Made by a program: the position numbers and the translations under genes
Assembly (NCBI RefSeq): GCF_018476645.1
Contig: NZ_JAHCTB010000005.1
Coordinates: 62,001-126,000, forward strand
DNA from: Aequorivita echinoideorum
GTDB lineage: Bacteria; Bacteroidota; Bacteroidia; Flavobacteriales; Flavobacteriaceae
Direction of reading: 5' to 3'
DNA length: 64,000 bases
Shown: positions 22,042-45,024 of the stretch, in pieces
Layout of the letters: every line of letters starts with the position of its first letter
Numbering within the stretch: position 1 is the stretch's first letter
Notes under the pieces: generated by a model
Seen by the model: only the letters and a program-made list of their open reading frames with translations
What the model was told of the DNA's origin: nothing
The model's database searches: none

Positions 22042-23672
22042 TATTTTACTTCTTCAGAATTCACATAGAAATCAGCTTTAATCTTAAGTGAAGATATAGG
22101 GTTGCTCAATTGCTTTTCGGTCCATTCGGCTTTTGGGTAAATCCATTCTTCGCTTCCATCAATGATGGCTATCACGGGCATATCAAAGCCATTAACGATG
22201 TTGGTATATCGAAATTTAACCGAATTATCCTCAAACATATATTCTATTTTTGGCACTTTTATCGTTCTTAAATATTGTTGCCAAAATTCCGTGAGGTCTA
22301 TGTTGCTTTCTTTTGAAATATATTCCTCAAGTTGCTTGCTGCTTATAGTCTGATGGTAAAATTCCTTGTTTAGCCCACGCAGAATTGCCCTCCATTTTTC
22401 GTCATCATCAATCAGTTGCCGTAATGTGTGCAGAATATTGGCACCCTTATAATACATATCACTGCTGCCCTCGCGATTTACATTATAAATGCCTATAATT
22501 GGCCTATCGTTTTGAATATTATTCCGAAGGCCAATAATATATTCTGATGCCGCTTTTTTTCCGAAAAAGTAATCCAGATACAAACTTTCCGAATAATTTG
22601 TAAATCCCTCATGAATCCACATATCTGCCACATCATTATTGGTTATATTGTTCGCAAACCATTCGTGGCCGCTTTCGTGGATTATTATGAAATCAAATTT
22701 TAATCCCCATCCGGAGCCTGAAAGATCGCTGCCCAAATACCCATTCCCGTATCTGTTCCCATACGTTACGCTGCTTTGGTGCTCCATTCCCAAATACGGT
22801 ACTTCTACGAGTTTGTAGCCATCTTCATAAAATGGATACGGGCCAAACCAATGCTCGAAAGCTTCCATCATTTTTGGAGCTTGTTTGAATTGTTCTTTTG
22901 CCTTTTCCTCATTTTCCCGAAGCGCATAATAATCCATATCAAGTGTTCCATTTTCACCTTTGTATTTTTCGCCAAAGTGAACATAATCCCCAATATTTAA
23001 GTTTACGCCGTAAGTATTTATAGGATTTTTTACTTCCCAAATCCAAGTTTTTGAATCCTTATTTTCAATAGTTTTCAGTAATTTTCCGTTGCTCACGTCC
23101 ATCAAATCCTTCGGCGTTGTTACTGAAATTTTTACACCGTTATCTGGTTCATCTGCGGGATGGTCTTTTAATGGCCACCAAATACTCGCACCGATTCCCT
23201 GATTTGAAGTTGCTATAAAATGTTTCCCGTTGCTATCTTTTTTCCAAGTAAATCCGCCATCCCAGGGTGGGCGGATTGCCTCTTTCGGGGTACCAGAGAA
23301 GAAGATGGTTATTTCAAGTTTTTTTCCCTCTTTCTGATTTTTTTGAAGTTTTAGTAAATGTGCATTTCCTTCGGAAGTGAATTGAATTTCTTTTCCATCC
23401 TGTAGCACTTTATCAATCTGCATCGGCTTTTGAAGGTCAATCTGCATTACATTATTCGGCTGTAAAACTTCATAAGAAATAATATTGCTTCCTGAGATAT
23501 TTTTCTCTGAAGGATTTATTTCCACAGAAAGATTATAATGCAAAACGTTCCACCACGCTCTTTCCGGGGTTATGCTACCGCGAAGGGTATCGGCGCGAGT
23601 AAATTTCTCCTGGGAAATTAGAATGCTGGTTGATGCAAAAAACAGAGAAATAATTAGAAGCTGTTTAATCAT
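22041..23672 (-). CDS. M1-family zinc aminopeptidase, secreted
   Basis: The 543-residue product has a signal peptide (about 1-20), an N-terminal beta domain and the M1 catalytic domain. The substrate-recognition motif is GMEHQ (295-299, GAMEN-like), zinc ligands are H332-E333-x-x-H336 and E355 lies in the conserved spacing. It lacks the large C-terminal helical domain of longer M1 enzymes, which is common in Bacteroidetes. It probably trims peptides in the periplasm. First gene of the four-gene run to 20520. Confidence 0.92.
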   Translation of the reverse strand: MIKQLLIISLFFASTSILISQEKFTRADTLRGSITPERAWWNVLHYNLSVEINPSEKNISGSNIISYEVLQPNNVMQIDLQKPMQIDKVLQDGKEIQFTSEGNAHLLKLQKNQKEGKKLEITIFFSGTPKEAIRPPWDGGFTWKKDSNGKHFIATSNQGIGASIWWPLKDHPADEPDNGVKISVTTPKDLMDVSNGKLLKTIENKDSKTWIWEVKNPINTYGVNLNIGDYVHFGEKYKGENGTLDMDYYALRENEEKAKEQFKQAPKMMEAFEHWFGPYPFYEDGYKLVEVPYLGMEHQSSVTYGNRYGNGYLGSDLSGSGWGLKFDFIIIHESGHEWFANNITNNDVADMWIHEGFTNYSESLYLDYFFGKKAASEYIIGLRNNIQNDRPIIGIYNVNREGSSDMYYKGANILHTLRQLIDDDEKWRAILRGLNKEFYHQTISSKQLEEYISKESNIDLTEFWQQYLRTIKVPKIEYMFEDNSVKFRYTNIVNGFDMPVIAIIDGSEEWIYPKAEWTEKQLSNPISSLKIKADFYVNSEEVK

Positions 23673-23684
23673 AGTTTATTTTTT

Positions 23685-23824
23685 AAATCACAAATCACAA
23701 ATCACAAATCACAAATCACAAATCATAAATCACAAATCACAAAATTCAAATCACAAATCACAAATCACAAATCACAAATCCCAAATCACACAGTCTAAAT
23801 CCCAAATTTCAAATCACAAAATCC
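23685..23824. repeat. Twenty-unit heptad array, AAATCAC type
   Basis: Exactly 20 units of 7 bp without a register slip. About eleven to thirteen are AAATCAC and the others vary (AAATCAT, AAAATTC, AAATCCC, ACAGTCT, AAATTTC). It ends 46 bp before the S23-like gene stop. Units of the same type (AAATTAC, AAATCTC, AAATCCC) lie inverted on the other side of that gene (about 24229-24261). Confidence 0.9.
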
Positions 23825-23870
23825 CAATTTTAAAAATCAATTCAGAAAGTAGAAATTAAAGCTTATTGCA

Positions 23871-24227
23871 TTATCTCCTTTTTCTTTTTTCTACAATTGC
23901 TGAGAAGATTTTTCTGAGTTCATCGGCTTCCTTTATCAACTCAAGCAATTCTCTTTGGTGAGCTTTATTAAAATCATTCTGCAAAAGTTTTAACCAAAGT
24001 AATGATTCCTTGGCTTCCTTTCTGCAAATCTTAATTCTAAAGTCAAAATCTTTATCACTTATATGCTCATTGGATTCTATATAATTAGCTGCTACAGAAC
24101 CCGAAGAACGAACTAATTGTTTCAAATCTTCAATATTTGCAATGCTTTTCTGAAAAGTATATGCTAATAGTCGGACAGAATTTGCAAATTGAAAAGTTCT
24201 GCTTTCCAAATCATAAGGTTTTTTCAT
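23871..24227 (-). CDS. S23-like four-helix-bundle protein
   Basis: The 118-residue all-helical protein belongs to the S23 family, first known from intervening sequences in 23S rRNA genes. Landmarks are LLAYTFQKSIA, the GSVAANYIES segment, and KEAKESLLWLKLL. The fold is shared with Avd, the accessory protein of diversity-generating retroelements, and is thought to bind nucleic acid. No rRNA gene or reverse transcriptase is nearby. It is bracketed by inverted heptad repeats, like the paralogue at 28612. Function unknown. Confidence 0.87.
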   Translation of the reverse strand: MKKPYDLESRTFQFANSVRLLAYTFQKSIANIEDLKQLVRSSGSVAANYIESNEHISDKDFDFRIKICRKEAKESLLWLKLLQNDFNKAHQRELLELIKEADELRKIFSAIVEKRKRR

Positions 24228-32709: not shown

Positions 32710-32711
32710 TT

Positions 32712-32760
32712 TTTTGAGTTGTAAGTTAAGAGTTCAGAGTTAAAAGCTCTGAATTCTGTA
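32712..32760. repeat. Heptad array between MarR and FadN-type genes
   Basis: Exact 7-bp units from 32719 (TTGTAAG, TTAAGAG, TTCAGAG, TTAAAAG, then two weaker ones), most ending AG. It fills almost the whole spacer. Confidence 0.7.
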
Positions 32761-32761
32761 T

Positions 32762-33205: not shown

Positions 33206-33229
33206 CTGATTATCAAAAATGTGAAAACC

Positions 33230-33237
33230 AAAGATAC
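33230..33237 (-). promoter_or_regulatory. -7 element TATCTTTG of the beta-oxidation block
   Basis: Exact TAnnTTTG on the minus strand, upstream of the MarR start. No matching -33 TTG is seen, and heptads begin just upstream at 33254. Confidence 0.5.
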
Positions 33238-33253
33238 AAAAATTTATTATGCA

Positions 33254-33372
33254 CGCATAGGAAAAAGATGTTAGAATTTAGAATTTAGATGTGAGACGTT
33301 AGACAAAAGACAAAAGAAATGAGAACAGAGACAAGAGAGCAGAGAATATAGAAATTACTTAAGAGTAATTAG
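33254..33372. repeat. Seventeen-unit heptad array, consensus ANNNNAG
   Basis: Seventeen 7-bp units in unbroken register. Nearly all end in AG and most begin with A; the middle is highly variable (for example ATGTGAG, ACGTTAG, ACAAAAG, AGCAGAG). Fills the spacer between the MarR and Gdx-like genes. Confidence 0.9.
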
Positions 33373-33376
33373 AACT

Positions 33377-33703
33377 TTAATTGGCAACAAATTTTAGTCC
33401 GATAATTGAAATTATTAATGTTGAGATGAAGAAAATACGCCAAAAGGTGGCGGGTTCATTGAAATAGAATATCCCTATAAGAACAGTTCCCACAGCGCCG
33501 ATTCCTGTCCAGACGGCGTAAGCTGTGCCAATGGGTAAGGATTTGGATGCTTTGATGAGAAGAAACATACTTACAAAGAGGCAAAGCATAAAACCCCCGA
33601 ACCACAATTTGGTGATTAGTCCGGAGGTTTCCTTGACTTTTCCAAGGCAGAAAGCGAAAGCTACTTCAAAAAGACCTGCGATGATTAGTAGGAGCCAGTT
33701 CAT
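33377..33703 (-). CDS. Small multidrug-resistance transporter, Gdx/SugE-like
   Basis: The 108-residue protein has four membrane helices, the conserved membrane Glu13 (LFEVAF) and the SLPIGTAYAVWTGIGAVG segment that marks the Gdx/SugE branch, whose characterised members export guanidinium in exchange for protons. Gdx proteins usually have a Trp three residues after the Glu; here it is Phe, so specificity is less certain. The start overlaps the acyl-CoA ligase stop (TAATG), so translation is coupled although the functions seem unrelated. Confidence 0.87.
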   Translation of the reverse strand: MNWLLLIIAGLFEVAFAFCLGKVKETSGLITKLWFGGFMLCLFVSMFLLIKASKSLPIGTAYAVWTGIGAVGTVLIGIFYFNEPATFWRIFFISTLIISIIGLKFVAN

Positions 33704-35487
33704 TAGTCCCCGCTATGCTCATAAATCTTATCATACAGATTTTTGAACTTCTCTTTAATTACTTTACGTTTCATCTTCATAGTGGGGGTGAGGTGGCCAC
33801 CTTCGATGCTCCATACTTCTGGGGTTAGCTCAAATTTCTTTACCTTTTCCCATTTGCCGAAACGTTCGTTATAGAAATCAATTTCCTTTTGGATTCGTTT
33901 TATTACGGCTTCATTTTTTACCATTTCCGTAGGATCTGATGGAATGTTCTTGCCTTTTTTATTTCCCCATTCCTTTAAAAATTCAAAATCTGGTTGGATA
34001 AGCGCTGCTGGCATTTTCTCGCCTTCACCTACCACCATAATCTGATCGATAAATCGGGATTGCTTCATTGCGTTTTCGAGTACTTGCGGCGCAACGTATT
34101 TACCGCCGCTGGTTTTAAACATCTCCTTCTTGCGGTCCGTAATTTTTAGGAAACCATCTTTATCTATTTCGCCAATATCACCCGTATGGAAATAGCCGTT
34201 TTTGAGGACTTCATCCGTTTGCTCTTGGTTTTTGTAATAACCACACATTACTTGTGGGCCTTTGATTAGGATTTCACCATCCTCGGCAATCTTCACTTCA
34301 GTTTCCTTTAGCGGTTTTCCCACGGTACCGATTTTAAATCCATGGTCGCGCATATCGTTTACCGAAACGACTGGGGAGGTTTCGGTAAGACCGTAGCCTT
34401 CCATTACGGGAATCTGCGCAGCGTTAAATACCCGTGCCAACCGAGGTTGCAGGGCTGCACTTCCGGAAGCAATGGCTTTAAGATTGCCACCCAAGGCTTC
34501 GCGCCACTTGCTGAAAATCAATTTATTGGCTAGTTTCAGTTTGGTTTCGTACCACCAACCGTTTTGTCCGTACGGCTCATATTTCAAACCGAGGTCAATG
34601 GCCCAAAAAAATAGTTTTTTCTTAATTCCCGTAAGTTCGGCACCCTTCCCATAAATTTTATCATACACCTTTTCCAGAAGACGCGGCACGGCGGTCATTA
34701 CATCTGGTTTTACTTCCTTTAAATTATCGCTAATGGTCTCCAGGGATTCAGCGAAGTTTATTTCGACCCCGCAGTATTGGTACATATAAAGAATCATCCG
34801 TTCGTAAATATGGCAAACGGGAAGGAAGCTGAGCGCTTTGGATTTTCCCAATTCTATGGGCAGTCGGTCTGCACTAAAAATACTATTTGAGGCTATATTT
34901 TTATGTGAAAGCATTACGCCCTTAGGCTTGCCCGTAGTTCCGGAAGTATATATTAATGTTGCCAGATCATCTTCGGTAATGGCATCTTTTCTGCTTTCGA
35001 CTTCATTTTGGTTGCTATCATCCTTTCCATCTTCAAGAATTTCCTTCCAGTTTTTCGCCCCTTTAATTTCATCAAAGGTGTACACTTCCTTTAGGGAAGG
35101 CACATTGTTTCTGATTTTTTGCACCTTATCATACACCTCCTTGCAGGAAGCGAAACAATATATGGATTCACTATGATTGAGAACGTACTCATATTCCTCT
35201 TCTGAAATCGTGGGATAGATAGGTACGTCCTGCGCTCCGGTCTGCATAATGCCGATGTCGCAAATATTCCATTCCGTGCGGTTGGTCATGGAGATAATGG
35301 CGATTTTATCGTTCGGTTTTACGCCCATTTTTATAAGCGCGCGGCTTAAGGCGTTTGCTTTGTCTATATATTCCTGAGTGGATGTGGCTTCCCAGGTTCC
35401 GTTAAATTTGGTTACCAGTGCTTTTTGCTGTGGATATTTTTCCAATTGGTAGTAGGGAAAGTCGAAGAGTCTTTTTGGTTCTTTCAT
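33703..35487 (-). CDS. Long-chain fatty acid-CoA ligase (AMP-forming)
   Basis: The 594-residue enzyme has the phosphate loop YTSGTTGKPKGV near 183, the GYGLTETSP motif near 400, and GDIGEIDKDGFLKITDRKK near 450. These are signatures of adenylate-forming long-chain acyl-CoA synthetases. It activates fatty acids for the beta-oxidation block next door. It is the first gene of a two-gene operon with the Gdx-like transporter. Heptad arrays lie on both sides of this operon (33254-33372 and 35557-35703). Confidence 0.93.
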   Translation of the reverse strand: MKEPKRLFDFPYYQLEKYPQQKALVTKFNGTWEATSTQEYIDKANALSRALIKMGVKPNDKIAIISMTNRTEWNICDIGIMQTGAQDVPIYPTISEEEYEYVLNHSESIYCFASCKEVYDKVQKIRNNVPSLKEVYTFDEIKGAKNWKEILEDGKDDSNQNEVESRKDAITEDDLATLIYTSGTTGKPKGVMLSHKNIASNSIFSADRLPIELGKSKALSFLPVCHIYERMILYMYQYCGVEINFAESLETISDNLKEVKPDVMTAVPRLLEKVYDKIYGKGAELTGIKKKLFFWAIDLGLKYEPYGQNGWWYETKLKLANKLIFSKWREALGGNLKAIASGSAALQPRLARVFNAAQIPVMEGYGLTETSPVVSVNDMRDHGFKIGTVGKPLKETEVKIAEDGEILIKGPQVMCGYYKNQEQTDEVLKNGYFHTGDIGEIDKDGFLKITDRKKEMFKTSGGKYVAPQVLENAMKQSRFIDQIMVVGEGEKMPAALIQPDFEFLKEWGNKKGKNIPSDPTEMVKNEAVIKRIQKEIDFYNERFGKWEKVKKFELTPEVWSIEGGHLTPTMKMKRKVIKEKFKNLYDKIYEHSGD

Positions 35488-35556
35488 GGAATTTTTATTG
35501 ATAAAGTGAAAATAGGGATTTTTTTCAAGTTATCTATTAATGGGGGATTAGATTTT

Positions 35557-35703
35557 AGACTCTAGACTAGAGACTAGAGAGCAGAGACTAGACGTAAGAC
35601 TTAAGATGTGAGATCTGAGATGTGAGATCTGAGATGTGAGATCTGAGATGTGAGATCTAAGACGTAAGACTTAAAAAGTATGATGTAAGATGTAGGACTT
35701 GGT
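35557..35703. repeat. Twenty-unit heptad array, consensus ANNNRAG
   Basis: Twenty-one 7-bp steps in one register. Early units are AGACTAG and AGAGCAG, then ACGTAAG and ACTTAAG. ATGTGAG and ATCTGAG then alternate four times each, with ACGTAAG/ACTTAA and ATGTAAG at the end. The same consensus as 33254-33372. Part of a 930-bp gene-free region (35488-36417). Confidence 0.9.
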
Positions 35704-35727
35704 TATTTCTTGAGGCTTAAATTTCAA

Positions 35728-35790
35728 GGTTCAGGGTTCAGGGTTCAGGGTTTAGGGTTTAGGGTTCAGGGTTTAGTGTTCAGTGTTCAG
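35728..35790. repeat. Nine-unit heptad array, GGTTCAG/GGTTTAG
   Basis: Nine units in perfect register, varying at the first base and at C/T of position 5. It resembles telomere-type TTTAGGG heptads, but in this bacterial context it is one more member of the heptad arrays. Between 35791 and 36010 I see only AT-rich sequence without genes. Confidence 0.9.
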
Positions 35791-36010
35791 GTTCAATGTT
35801 TAAAGTTGAAAATTTTTAATTCAAATGTGAAGACTTGATTTTGCTTTTAGAATTTTGGATTAAGGATGTTTGCAATTTTTGCAGCATCTATAGGTGTGTA
35901 TTAAAAAGTGATGGTGAGGTTTTTGTTGCTTGACCATAGAAGGGTGATAATAAGGTAGTGTTATAGTTGAAGTAATCAGGGAGCATCCATAAGGTATCTA
36001 GGGAGTATCA

Positions 36011-36065
36011 TCGGTATAGGGTCGGCATACTATCGGCATATCATCGGCATACAGTCGGCATAGGG
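36011..36065. repeat. Five-unit 11-bp array TCGGCATANNN
   Basis: Five units share TCGG(C/T)ATA followed by a variable triplet (GGG, CTA, TCA, CAG, GGG). Weaker 11-bp periodicity extends upstream to about 35980. Confidence 0.85.
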
Positions 36066-36116
36066 ATTTTTCTGTGGAGGGAAAGTACGGCTAAGATAGG
36101 GAAATGATGTTTGATC

Positions 36117-36231
36117 AGCAATTAACAATTAGCAATTAGTAGTTCTCAGTTCTCGGTTCTCAGTTGTTGGCTTTTGGCTGTTTATTGTTCTCGGTTGTCT
36201 GTTTTTGGCTTTTGGCCTTTGGCCTTTGGCT
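36117..36231. repeat. Sixteen-unit drifting heptad array
   Basis: Units drift from AGCAATT through CTCAGTT and CTCGGTT to TTTGGCT and TTTGGCC, with one 3-bp slip at 36187-36189. TTTGGCT is the reverse complement of the AGCCAAA unit at 11067-11129. Confidence 0.85.
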
Positions 36232-36261
36232 TTTATTGCATTTATAATATTTTTCAGGGAG

Positions 36262-36376
36262 GTCATTGCGAGGCCGATAGGCTGTGGCAATCTCATGAGG
36301 CTACTTGTTATCATGATTGGGACTGCACTTCGGCAGATTGCTTCAGTCGCTCCTAAAGTCGCTCCTTCGCAATGAC
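36262..36376. repeat. GTCATTGCGA inverted-repeat element
   Basis: A 115-bp element starting GTCATTGCGA and ending TCGCAATGAC, with internal segments (GGCAATCTC, CAGATTGCTTC) that pair further. Elements with this terminus are known, dispersed, in many unrelated bacterial genomes. It lies 42 bp from the purL stop. Confidence 0.8.
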
Positions 36377-36417
36377 GTTACTATATATCCAACCATCCAA
36401 TAATCCAAAAAAATCTA

Positions 36418-43502: not shown

Positions 43503-43520
43503 TGTTCTTATTTAAATGGT

Positions 43521-43565
43521 GCTATTGATTTTATTGATGCTATTGATGCTATTGATGCTATTGAT
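43521..43565. repeat. Five-unit 9-bp array GCTATTGAT
   Basis: Five 9-bp units (one variant TTTATTGAT) just upstream of the nuclease start, followed by degenerate continuation to about 43630. Confidence 0.85.
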
Positions 43566-43667
43566 GCTGTTTTTGGTGTCACTATAGTTTCTATTGTTAT
43601 TTTTGATGCTATTGTTTCTCTTGTTGCTTTATTATTTATTTTCCCATAGAATCCATAGTATTAATTC

Positions 43668-44946: not shown

Positions 44947-44958
44947 TCTTTTTAAATC

Positions 44959-45024
44959 GAAAGTGAAATCGAAATCGAAATTGAAATCGAAGCTGAATTT
45001 GAAATCGAAATCGAAACTGAAAAT
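44959..45024. repeat. Eleven-unit hexamer array GAANNN
   Basis: Eleven 6-bp units keep GAA and vary the other three bases (ATC most often; also AGT, ATT, GCT, TTT, ACT, AAT). It fills the space between two divergent promoters. Confidence 0.85.

Follow-up and report, generated by a model that had tools for sequence, protein, structure and literature searches.

AGA-anchored heptanucleotide arrays beside gdx and fadD in an Aequorivita genome, and the facing order of such arrays in Bacteroidota

Intergenic arrays of heptanucleotide units have been described in several groups of bacteria. In Xanthomonas, heptads of the GGGAATC/GGGANTN type form facing (convergent) pairs, of which 70 and 75 cases were counted in two genomes; they are nearly always located closer to the 5' neighbouring gene, occur about equally on the two strands, are found between divergent genes in 7–8% of the cases and differ in length and sequence between related species, and their G-tract anchor has been proposed to form G-quadruplexes (PMC4692102). 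TAACTGA heptamers have been reported in Beggiatoaceae, Cyanobacteria and five Bacteroidetes including Aequorivita sublithincola (PMC4679880), and in the trnL intron of Nostoc the P6b stem contains degenerate heptads of the forms TDNGATT and NNTGAGT (PMC4476775). Among long simple sequence repeats, a unit of seven is favoured in most repeat-rich genomes, and it was suggested that slippage is promoted by a polymerase contact of 7 nt (Mrazek and others, 2007, cited in PMC4679880 and PMC4692102). Heptamers of the STRR type are a further kind, from Cyanobacteria. Here we analyzed a stretch of 64,000 nt (the window) of an Aequorivita genome of 2.93 Mb (G000), in which two arrays of AGA-NNNN heptads, array 1 and array 2 (Table 1), stand on either side of the gdx and fadD genes.

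The closest known relative of the AGA arrays is the Xanthomonas GGGANTN family. In both, the arrays are intergenic, combine conserved with free positions, form facing pairs, occur about equally on the two strands, tend to lie closer to the 5' gene, are rare in divergent spacers and vary in length and sequence between related species (PMC4692102); facing pairs and 5'-gene placement hold for the AGA class, whereas array 1 is partnerless and lies nearer the other gene. The AGA arrays differ from the Xanthomonas family in lacking the GGGA motif and the G-tract, in their AGA anchor, in the number of their unit families and in the phylum to which they belong (PMC4692102). The TAACTGA repeats are likewise intergenic and strain-specific, with other heptamers mixed in and 7-nt indels, but they consist of one exact unit and lie mostly upstream of start codons in Beggiatoaceae, unlike the AGA arrays; the abstract mentions a single indirect repeat, and the portions covered report no facing order (PMC4679880). 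None of the arrays in the window consists of the TAACTGA unit. The repeats of Mrazek and others (2007) are longer than chance would lead one to expect and, as cited, do not include a degenerate anchored form or a facing order, while the Nostoc heptads, which are degenerate, pair into a stem and change in length by 7 and 14 nt, differ from the AGA arrays in occupying a single locus within a structural RNA (PMC4476775). The portion covered of PMC4060949 added nothing on heptads. Intergenic heptamer arrays are already known; the AGA class, its order and the recurrence of its words were not found in the literature searched, which was an open-access collection and listed nothing on heptads of Bacteroidota that are anchored by AGA or face each other.

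The arrays observed here have a period of 7 and its multiples only, are mostly intergenic, gain and lose units in steps of 7, change quickly between sister species and show a strict AGA...TCT order. Our leading explanation, which is still tentative, is that they grow by 7-nt slippage and that the AGA arrays are kept as arms of hairpins, which would mark transcript ends or protect RNA.

In 299 genomes of the family, search windows with AGA...TCT outnumbered those with TCT...AGA (the search pattern read backwards) by 44:0, the 44 corresponding to 34 distinct loci in 27/299 genomes and 23/236 genera. The ratio was 180:2 in 395 genomes of the phylum, with positives in 41/395 genomes and 15/171 genera; the phylum figures are sums of tables, and the family and phylum samples partly overlap. 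One of the two reversed windows was found in G634, where two elements stand in tandem, and the other in G356. When every pair is seen from both strands, a TCT partner was present within 140 bp downstream of 34/116 AGA runs and upstream of 1/116. The DNA sampled contained 21 facing pairs, which include orthologues or overlaps (about 13 independent loci by count), and one reversed pair, which joins two tandem copies. The AGA...TCT order prevailed by 7:0 in stretches chosen by place and by 12:1 in 80 fadD loci. Other anchors gave 0–5 pairs each in the stretches chosen by place, always in one order (GTT...AAC, 3:0), and at the fadD loci one AAT...ATT pair stood in the opposite order. The heptad types taken together showed a weak outward GC skew (at stops, 11 to 7 of 25; at starts, 11 to 4 of 18), so that the strict order is clearest for AGA.

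When lags 2 to 13 were compared in the window, 15 stretches of 70 bp with a lag-matching of at least 0.54 were detected at lag 7 and 0–2 at each of the others. A sample of 464 kb from the source genome, made up of stretches partly picked for containing AGA runs, gave 37 arrays at lag 7 and 0–4 at the remaining lags of this range. In both cases the large excess was confined to lag 7 and its multiples. Triplets standing in runs of at least five numbered 187 at spacing 7 and 0–9 at spacings 4–6 and 8–12, and the leading spacing-7 triplets, with the strands merged, were AAC (23), AGA (21), AAT (20) and CAA (16). Samples from eight genomes of the genus (1.66 Mb) yielded 67 arrays amounting to 7,948 bp, 18.4% of which lay inside crudely called open reading frames covering 90.5% of the DNA. 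One of these samples (G024, 120 kb) contained no arrays, and that of the source genome was the richest, partly because its stretches were picked for AGA runs. An excess at period 7, a location mostly outside genes and array lengths that vary among relatives by multiples of 7 (the last by eye), all observed here, are the features of intergenic heptanucleotide tandem repeats.

The pattern AGA-N4 repeated five times was present in 27/28 genomes of the genus and in 168/299 genomes of the family, and the corresponding AAC-N4 pattern in 28/28 genomes of the genus; at period 8, the AGA pattern was present in 10/28. The initial annotation had proposed that a lag-7 excess would be found in the intergenic DNA of relatives, along with many arrays conserving the same positions and with differing sets of units, and these proposals hold, the unit sets differing between species. 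We provisionally assign both arrays to a class of intergenic heptanucleotide arrays extending across the Flavobacteriaceae and the wider Bacteroidota.

That heptad arrays exist at this locus is clear from array 1, in which 13 AGA anchors start at 33266, 33273 and so on to 33350 with a spacing of exactly 7, and from the lag-7 excess in the window and the genome. The three anchor positions are conserved in 13/13 units, and the other four columns have entropies of 1.74, 1.92, 1.00 and 1.46 bits. Seventeen units at 33254–33372 had been announced, of which 13 have exact anchors, the remainder being degenerate edges. An exact register had been claimed for both arrays; it is present in array 1, whereas in array 2 the anchors fall into two registers that overlap and are shifted by 2 bp relative to each other, with 6 anchors at 35550–35585 and 15 at 35569–35667.

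The units of the AGA arrays are unusually diverse. Mostly distinct units were found in 63/82 AGA arrays, 19/43 AAC arrays, 7/25 GAA arrays and 3/22 TGA arrays; 12 of the AGA loci came from a pattern requiring two different words, and before these were added, distinct units made up on average a share of 0.74 in AGA arrays and 0.51 in AAC arrays. The AGA words avoid G at their sixth position and C at their seventh (3% each). The words YGTK then TTTK between AGA anchors gave 43 matches in 21/299 genomes and 16/236 genera of the family (15 of the matches being in three Aequorivita), versus 0 in the backwards control. One conserved locus was considered as the source of these shared words and rejected: 12 contexts were fetched, which were all unlike one another by eye, and among them only that of L254 (G006) is the KRR-stop locus, a gene pair whose first gene ends in KRR-stop and at which AGACGTTAGATTTTAGA-like heptads are present in many species. 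Two adjoining matches in the source genome (contig C11 near 571530) also belong to this locus; the context check covered 12 of the 43 matches.

The two arms of a locus agree at unit position 6 with a frequency of 0.67, versus 0.39 for arms of different loci (0/2000 permutations, z 4.9), weakly at positions 7 (60/2000) and 5 (78/2000), and not at position 4. The predicted folding had z below -2 at 18/34 facing loci and, when flanks were included, in 14/20 folds (both strands of 10 loci). Pairing was predicted for AGA positions in about 0.8 of the cases and for unit position 5 in 0.30, and arms folded better, though by little, with their own partners than in each of 20 rounds of arm exchange. 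For array 2, a fold within the array is predicted (z about -3).

The placement of the arrays was studied using 120 AGA runs, 86 of which were kept after removing 24 located mostly in called open reading frames and 10 without a flanking gene. The nearest gene was that on the 5' side in 68/86 cases and the other gene in 18/86, start and stop sides behaving alike, and 3/86 runs lay between divergent genes, to be compared with 189 divergent spacers out of 873 overall. Array 1 is an exception, as it lies 60 bp from marR (a MarR-family gene) and about 24 bp from gdx. The four genes neighbouring the two arrays are all on the minus strand. A role of multi-frame stop codons, by which arrays behind a gene would halt stray ribosomes, was also considered, as units ending in T-T/G/A before AGA contain a stop codon; it was rejected, since arrays of these units were as common in antisense (19/38) as in sense (14/33).

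Under the explanation proposed here, the arrays would arise and change in length by replication slippage of 7 (or 14) nt plus point mutation, and the AGA arrays would be kept, or founded, as facing arms that form imperfect hairpins (or cruciforms), alike on both strands, next to the ends of genes. AGA would pair with TCT and the adjoining positions would pair in part, so that the anchor would stay while the middle of the unit drifts. Such a hairpin would account for the conserved anchor, the strand symmetry and the scarcity between divergent promoters, and the facing-arm architecture, which the initial annotation does not mention, can account for a conserved anchor with a free middle without a reader protein. 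We infer that the function is that of a transcript end or an RNA-protecting hairpin; the most likely use would be bidirectional, like that of REP/ERIC palindromes or bidirectional terminators. REP/ERIC-type palindromes and bidirectional terminators are strand-symmetric hairpins beside gene ends and are not built of heptads. Arrays with a single arm, such as array 1, would be half-elements that have lost the other arm or never acquired it.

Several findings weigh against this explanation. In at least 81/116 AGA runs, a partner arm is missing from the surrounding 140 bp, and complementarity of AGA with TCT is already built into the search pattern. When arms are exchanged between loci, the average cost is only about 1.3 kcal/mol; several of the 21 pairs do not fold better than their shuffled versions, and there are arms that differ in word class. 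Some facing pairs overlap coding ends or a signal-peptide region, and others stand in short spacers that look intra-operonic by eye; the latter would be ill-suited to terminators, and favour an RNA-protecting hairpin. Array 1 has neither a partner arm nor a predicted fold (z -0.2), so that the explanation suits the class better than it suits array 1. Lastly, as judged from the gdx-marR spacers of the relatives G014 and G006, where fadD is 94% identical and the arrays measure 80 and 275 bp, with most of the units different and a TCAATAC-like stretch in common, any selection on the sequence would be weak.

At L254, L133 and L301, a gene begins within the second arm, and a TTC pattern with a 7-nt spacing can be seen by eye in the codons for its signal peptide (F, L, S).

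The strongest rival to the hairpin-arm explanation is neutral slippage of heptanucleotides, in which expansion, mutation and ectopic copying would suffice, the anchor and the facing order being by-products of ancestry and of spacer tolerance; we regard this as unlikely, although it deserves serious attention. Slippage itself is visible. Over all arrays, unit identity falls from 0.72 at a distance of one unit to 0.48 at nine, as against 0.30 off-register, and downstream of marR the copy numbers of GGAATTA and AACTCAT vary between species in whole units (by eye). In AGA arrays, identity is slightly higher two units apart (0.66) than one unit apart (0.61), which suggests 14-bp steps; array 2 carries a higher-order repeat of 14/28 bp. 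In simulations of uniform slippage, 39/48 arrays were not unusual, so that most of the arrays fit this process, and column heterogeneity was significant (p<0.05) in 9/48 (about 2 being expected). Array 1 is one of the nine, with p 0.005, the floor of 200 simulations, whereas the stretch containing array 2 is not (p 0.23). The suggestion in the initial annotation that these are not ordinary slippage repeats is supported in part: array 1 and eight other arrays keep some columns more than uniform slippage does, and for the 39 others uniform slippage is compatible with being the sole source of the anchor.

Neutral slippage is also consistent with the differences in array length and in most units between sister species at the same spacer, with the 22-bp junction shared by the composite arrays of one relative at four places and the BLAST-similar arrays at several loci, and with the scarcity of G ahead of start codons, by which AGA would be disfavoured at these sites. 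The 44:0 and 180:2 ratios and the recurrence of words across 16 genera with an empty control would be unexpected if it were the whole explanation. Spacer composition was considered as the cause of the polarity and rejected, since array-free spacers, although depleted in G upstream of starts, have no consistent surplus of AGA relative to TCT at their stop edges, and the surplus 20–60 nt from starts is slight.

Neighbouring units of AGA arrays are marginally more similar than in shuffled order over all arrays (27/500 shuffles reach the observed value) and not in the mixed subset (159/500); the corresponding values over all arrays were 2/500 for AAC and 0/500 for CTC, TGA and GAA. In the small mixed subsets of the other anchors they were 28 (AAC), 141 (TGA) and 314 (GAA) of 500, CTC having too few mixed arrays. 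The lack of neighbour similarity was therefore dropped as proof against slippage, the mixed subsets of other anchors being alike. The claim that this is not ordinary slippage retains in its favour the unusually mixed composition of the AGA arrays.

A dispersed palindromic family (REP- or MITE-like) is a less probable source, in which one ancestral AGA...TCT palindrome would have been copied and its arms would then have slipped and decayed, the order and the vocabulary being inherited. This would agree with the nearly invariant order in the phylum sample, with the word class shared by both arms at position 6 and with the recurrence of composite cassettes at several loci of one genome. However, loop sequences are mostly not common across the 34 facing loci (by eye), and Y1_Tnp genes, identified in 19/28 genomes of the genus, were not found in 9/28, array-bearing ones included. 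Y1_Tnp is the usual family of REP mobilisers, and REP elements are recognized by a Y1_Tnp gene flanked by elements. Mobilisation of the arrays by RAYT, in the manner of REP elements, was rejected, as the 95,290 bp surrounding 30 Y1_Tnp loci contained no arrays, which is weak evidence given a density of about 0–8 per 100 kb elsewhere. In the relative G025 (L234–L241), composite cassettes in which two or three families of heptads are joined occur at several loci, and their 22-bp junction, found at the four places mentioned above, is absent from the other 27 genomes of the genus.

It is more improbable still that AGA is bound every 7 nt by a period reader, the protein or RNA of the initial annotation (it might be a filament, for instance, or a tandem RNA-binding protein), with selection keeping the anchor. 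The strictly kept anchor and free middle of array 1, the more mixed composition of AGA arrays as compared with other anchors and the words common to several genera would fit such a reader, but other anchors, AAC foremost, are equally common, and the units are unstable between sister species. Neither this proposal nor its companion, a copying process that mutates the units, was borne out; slippage is visible in the decay of identity, the whole-unit changes and the 39/48 arrays. Such copying, re-priming on the 3-nt anchor as units are added, is highly improbable, as no enzyme or template was identified and the strict facing order would need an additional rule, even though adjacent units differ by 0.27 changes per base per step in arrays that change fast and the period-8 AGA arrays among those listed are mostly uniform, whereas the period-7 ones mostly are not (by eye, with 3 period-8 runs in all in the DNA sampled).

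The parallel with Xanthomonas raises the broader possibility, which is doubtful, that facing heptad arrays of fixed order (the purine arm first, on both strands) might be a general bacterial element that arose in at least two phyla (GGGA in Xanthomonas and AGA in Bacteroidota), in which the common part would be the 7-nt period and the order rather than a G-quadruplex, and which would share an undescribed 7-nt mechanism making or reading such hairpins. This parallel also calls into question whether G-quadruplexes are the reason for the GGGANTN repeats. The papers cited leave open why seven is favoured and whether the arrays act, a question which the strict AGA...TCT order in the phylum sample makes testable.

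The orthologous spacers of relatives show how variable the occupation of these sites is. No array was found in 18 purL-fadD spacers of relatives, in which several genomes were entered twice; in 11 of the 18 rows, representing 6 distinct relatives, the spacer is 139–144 bp long with a hairpin that looks terminator-like by eye. Bracketing of the fadD-gdx genes by heptads, as initially described, holds at this locus and in G006, where heptads are present upstream of fadD and also in the gdx-marR spacer, and not in those 18 spacers. Among 25 rows of the gdx-marR spacer inspected by eye, a DUF488-like gene was present in 19 (13 distinct genomes), absent in 5 and unexamined in 1; DUF488 was confirmed by Pfam for one relative (L023 12193–12714). 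Array 1 stands where the DUF488 gene is absent, a situation also met in G016 and G014, which is suggestive of arrays being scars of gene loss, against which two relatives (L028 and L029) have neither the gene nor an array. At another gene pair, found in 27 genomes, heptads fill the interval between the two genes in most species, including the final codons of one and the initial codons of the other, and in 7/27 the array is replaced by another sequence, partly GC-rich and hairpin-like (both by eye), which favours the hairpin-arm explanation.

Table 1. Positions of the heptad arrays and of the neighbouring genes and spacers in the window
Feature	Position	Strand	Remarks
Array 1, 13 AGA-NNNN heptads	33266..33356	+	In the marR-gdx spacer; degenerate tail to ~33377
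Array 2, AGA-NNNN heptads in two registers	35550..35700	+	Upstream of fadD
gdx (small multidrug resistance family) and fadD (AMP-binding) genes	33377..35487	-	Between arrays 1 and 2
gdx-marR spacer	33206..33376		Houses array 1; most relatives have a DUF488-like gene there
purL-fadD spacer, 930 bp	35488..36417		Houses array 2
TTCAGGG/TTTAGGG heptad array, 10.6 copies	35723..35795	+	Adjoins array 2
AAC-type heptad arrays (words include AACTGAG, AGCCAAA and AATTGCT)	36114..36234	-	+ strand reads GTT/TTC
Degenerate AAC heptads	32710..32761	-	Immediately 5' of the ATG of the next gene

The TTCAGGG/TTTAGGG units carry one G-tract each and resemble a telomere repeat of the plant type. Heptads are also present in several relatives at the site of the degenerate AAC heptads, and in one relative (G022, L200 16964) an 18-unit run includes at least 9 units TGATAAC, a rotation of TAACTGA. 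No matches to Rfam at gathering thresholds were found anywhere in the window. The purL-fadD spacer also contains an 11-bp array (TCGGCATACAA) at 36022–36062, a similar stretch of which is present at G000:C22:375233-375301, and a dispersed palindromic element of about 125 bp at 36262–36387, with the inverted ends GTCATTGCGA...TCGCAATGAC and many matches in the genomes of the genus. Elsewhere in the window, an AAATCAC heptad array of 19.4 copies (23685–23820) occupies the spacer 23669–23892 between two minus-strand genes, and non-heptad arrays with units of 9/18 bp and 6/12/18 bp are located at 43520–43628 and 44954–45022.

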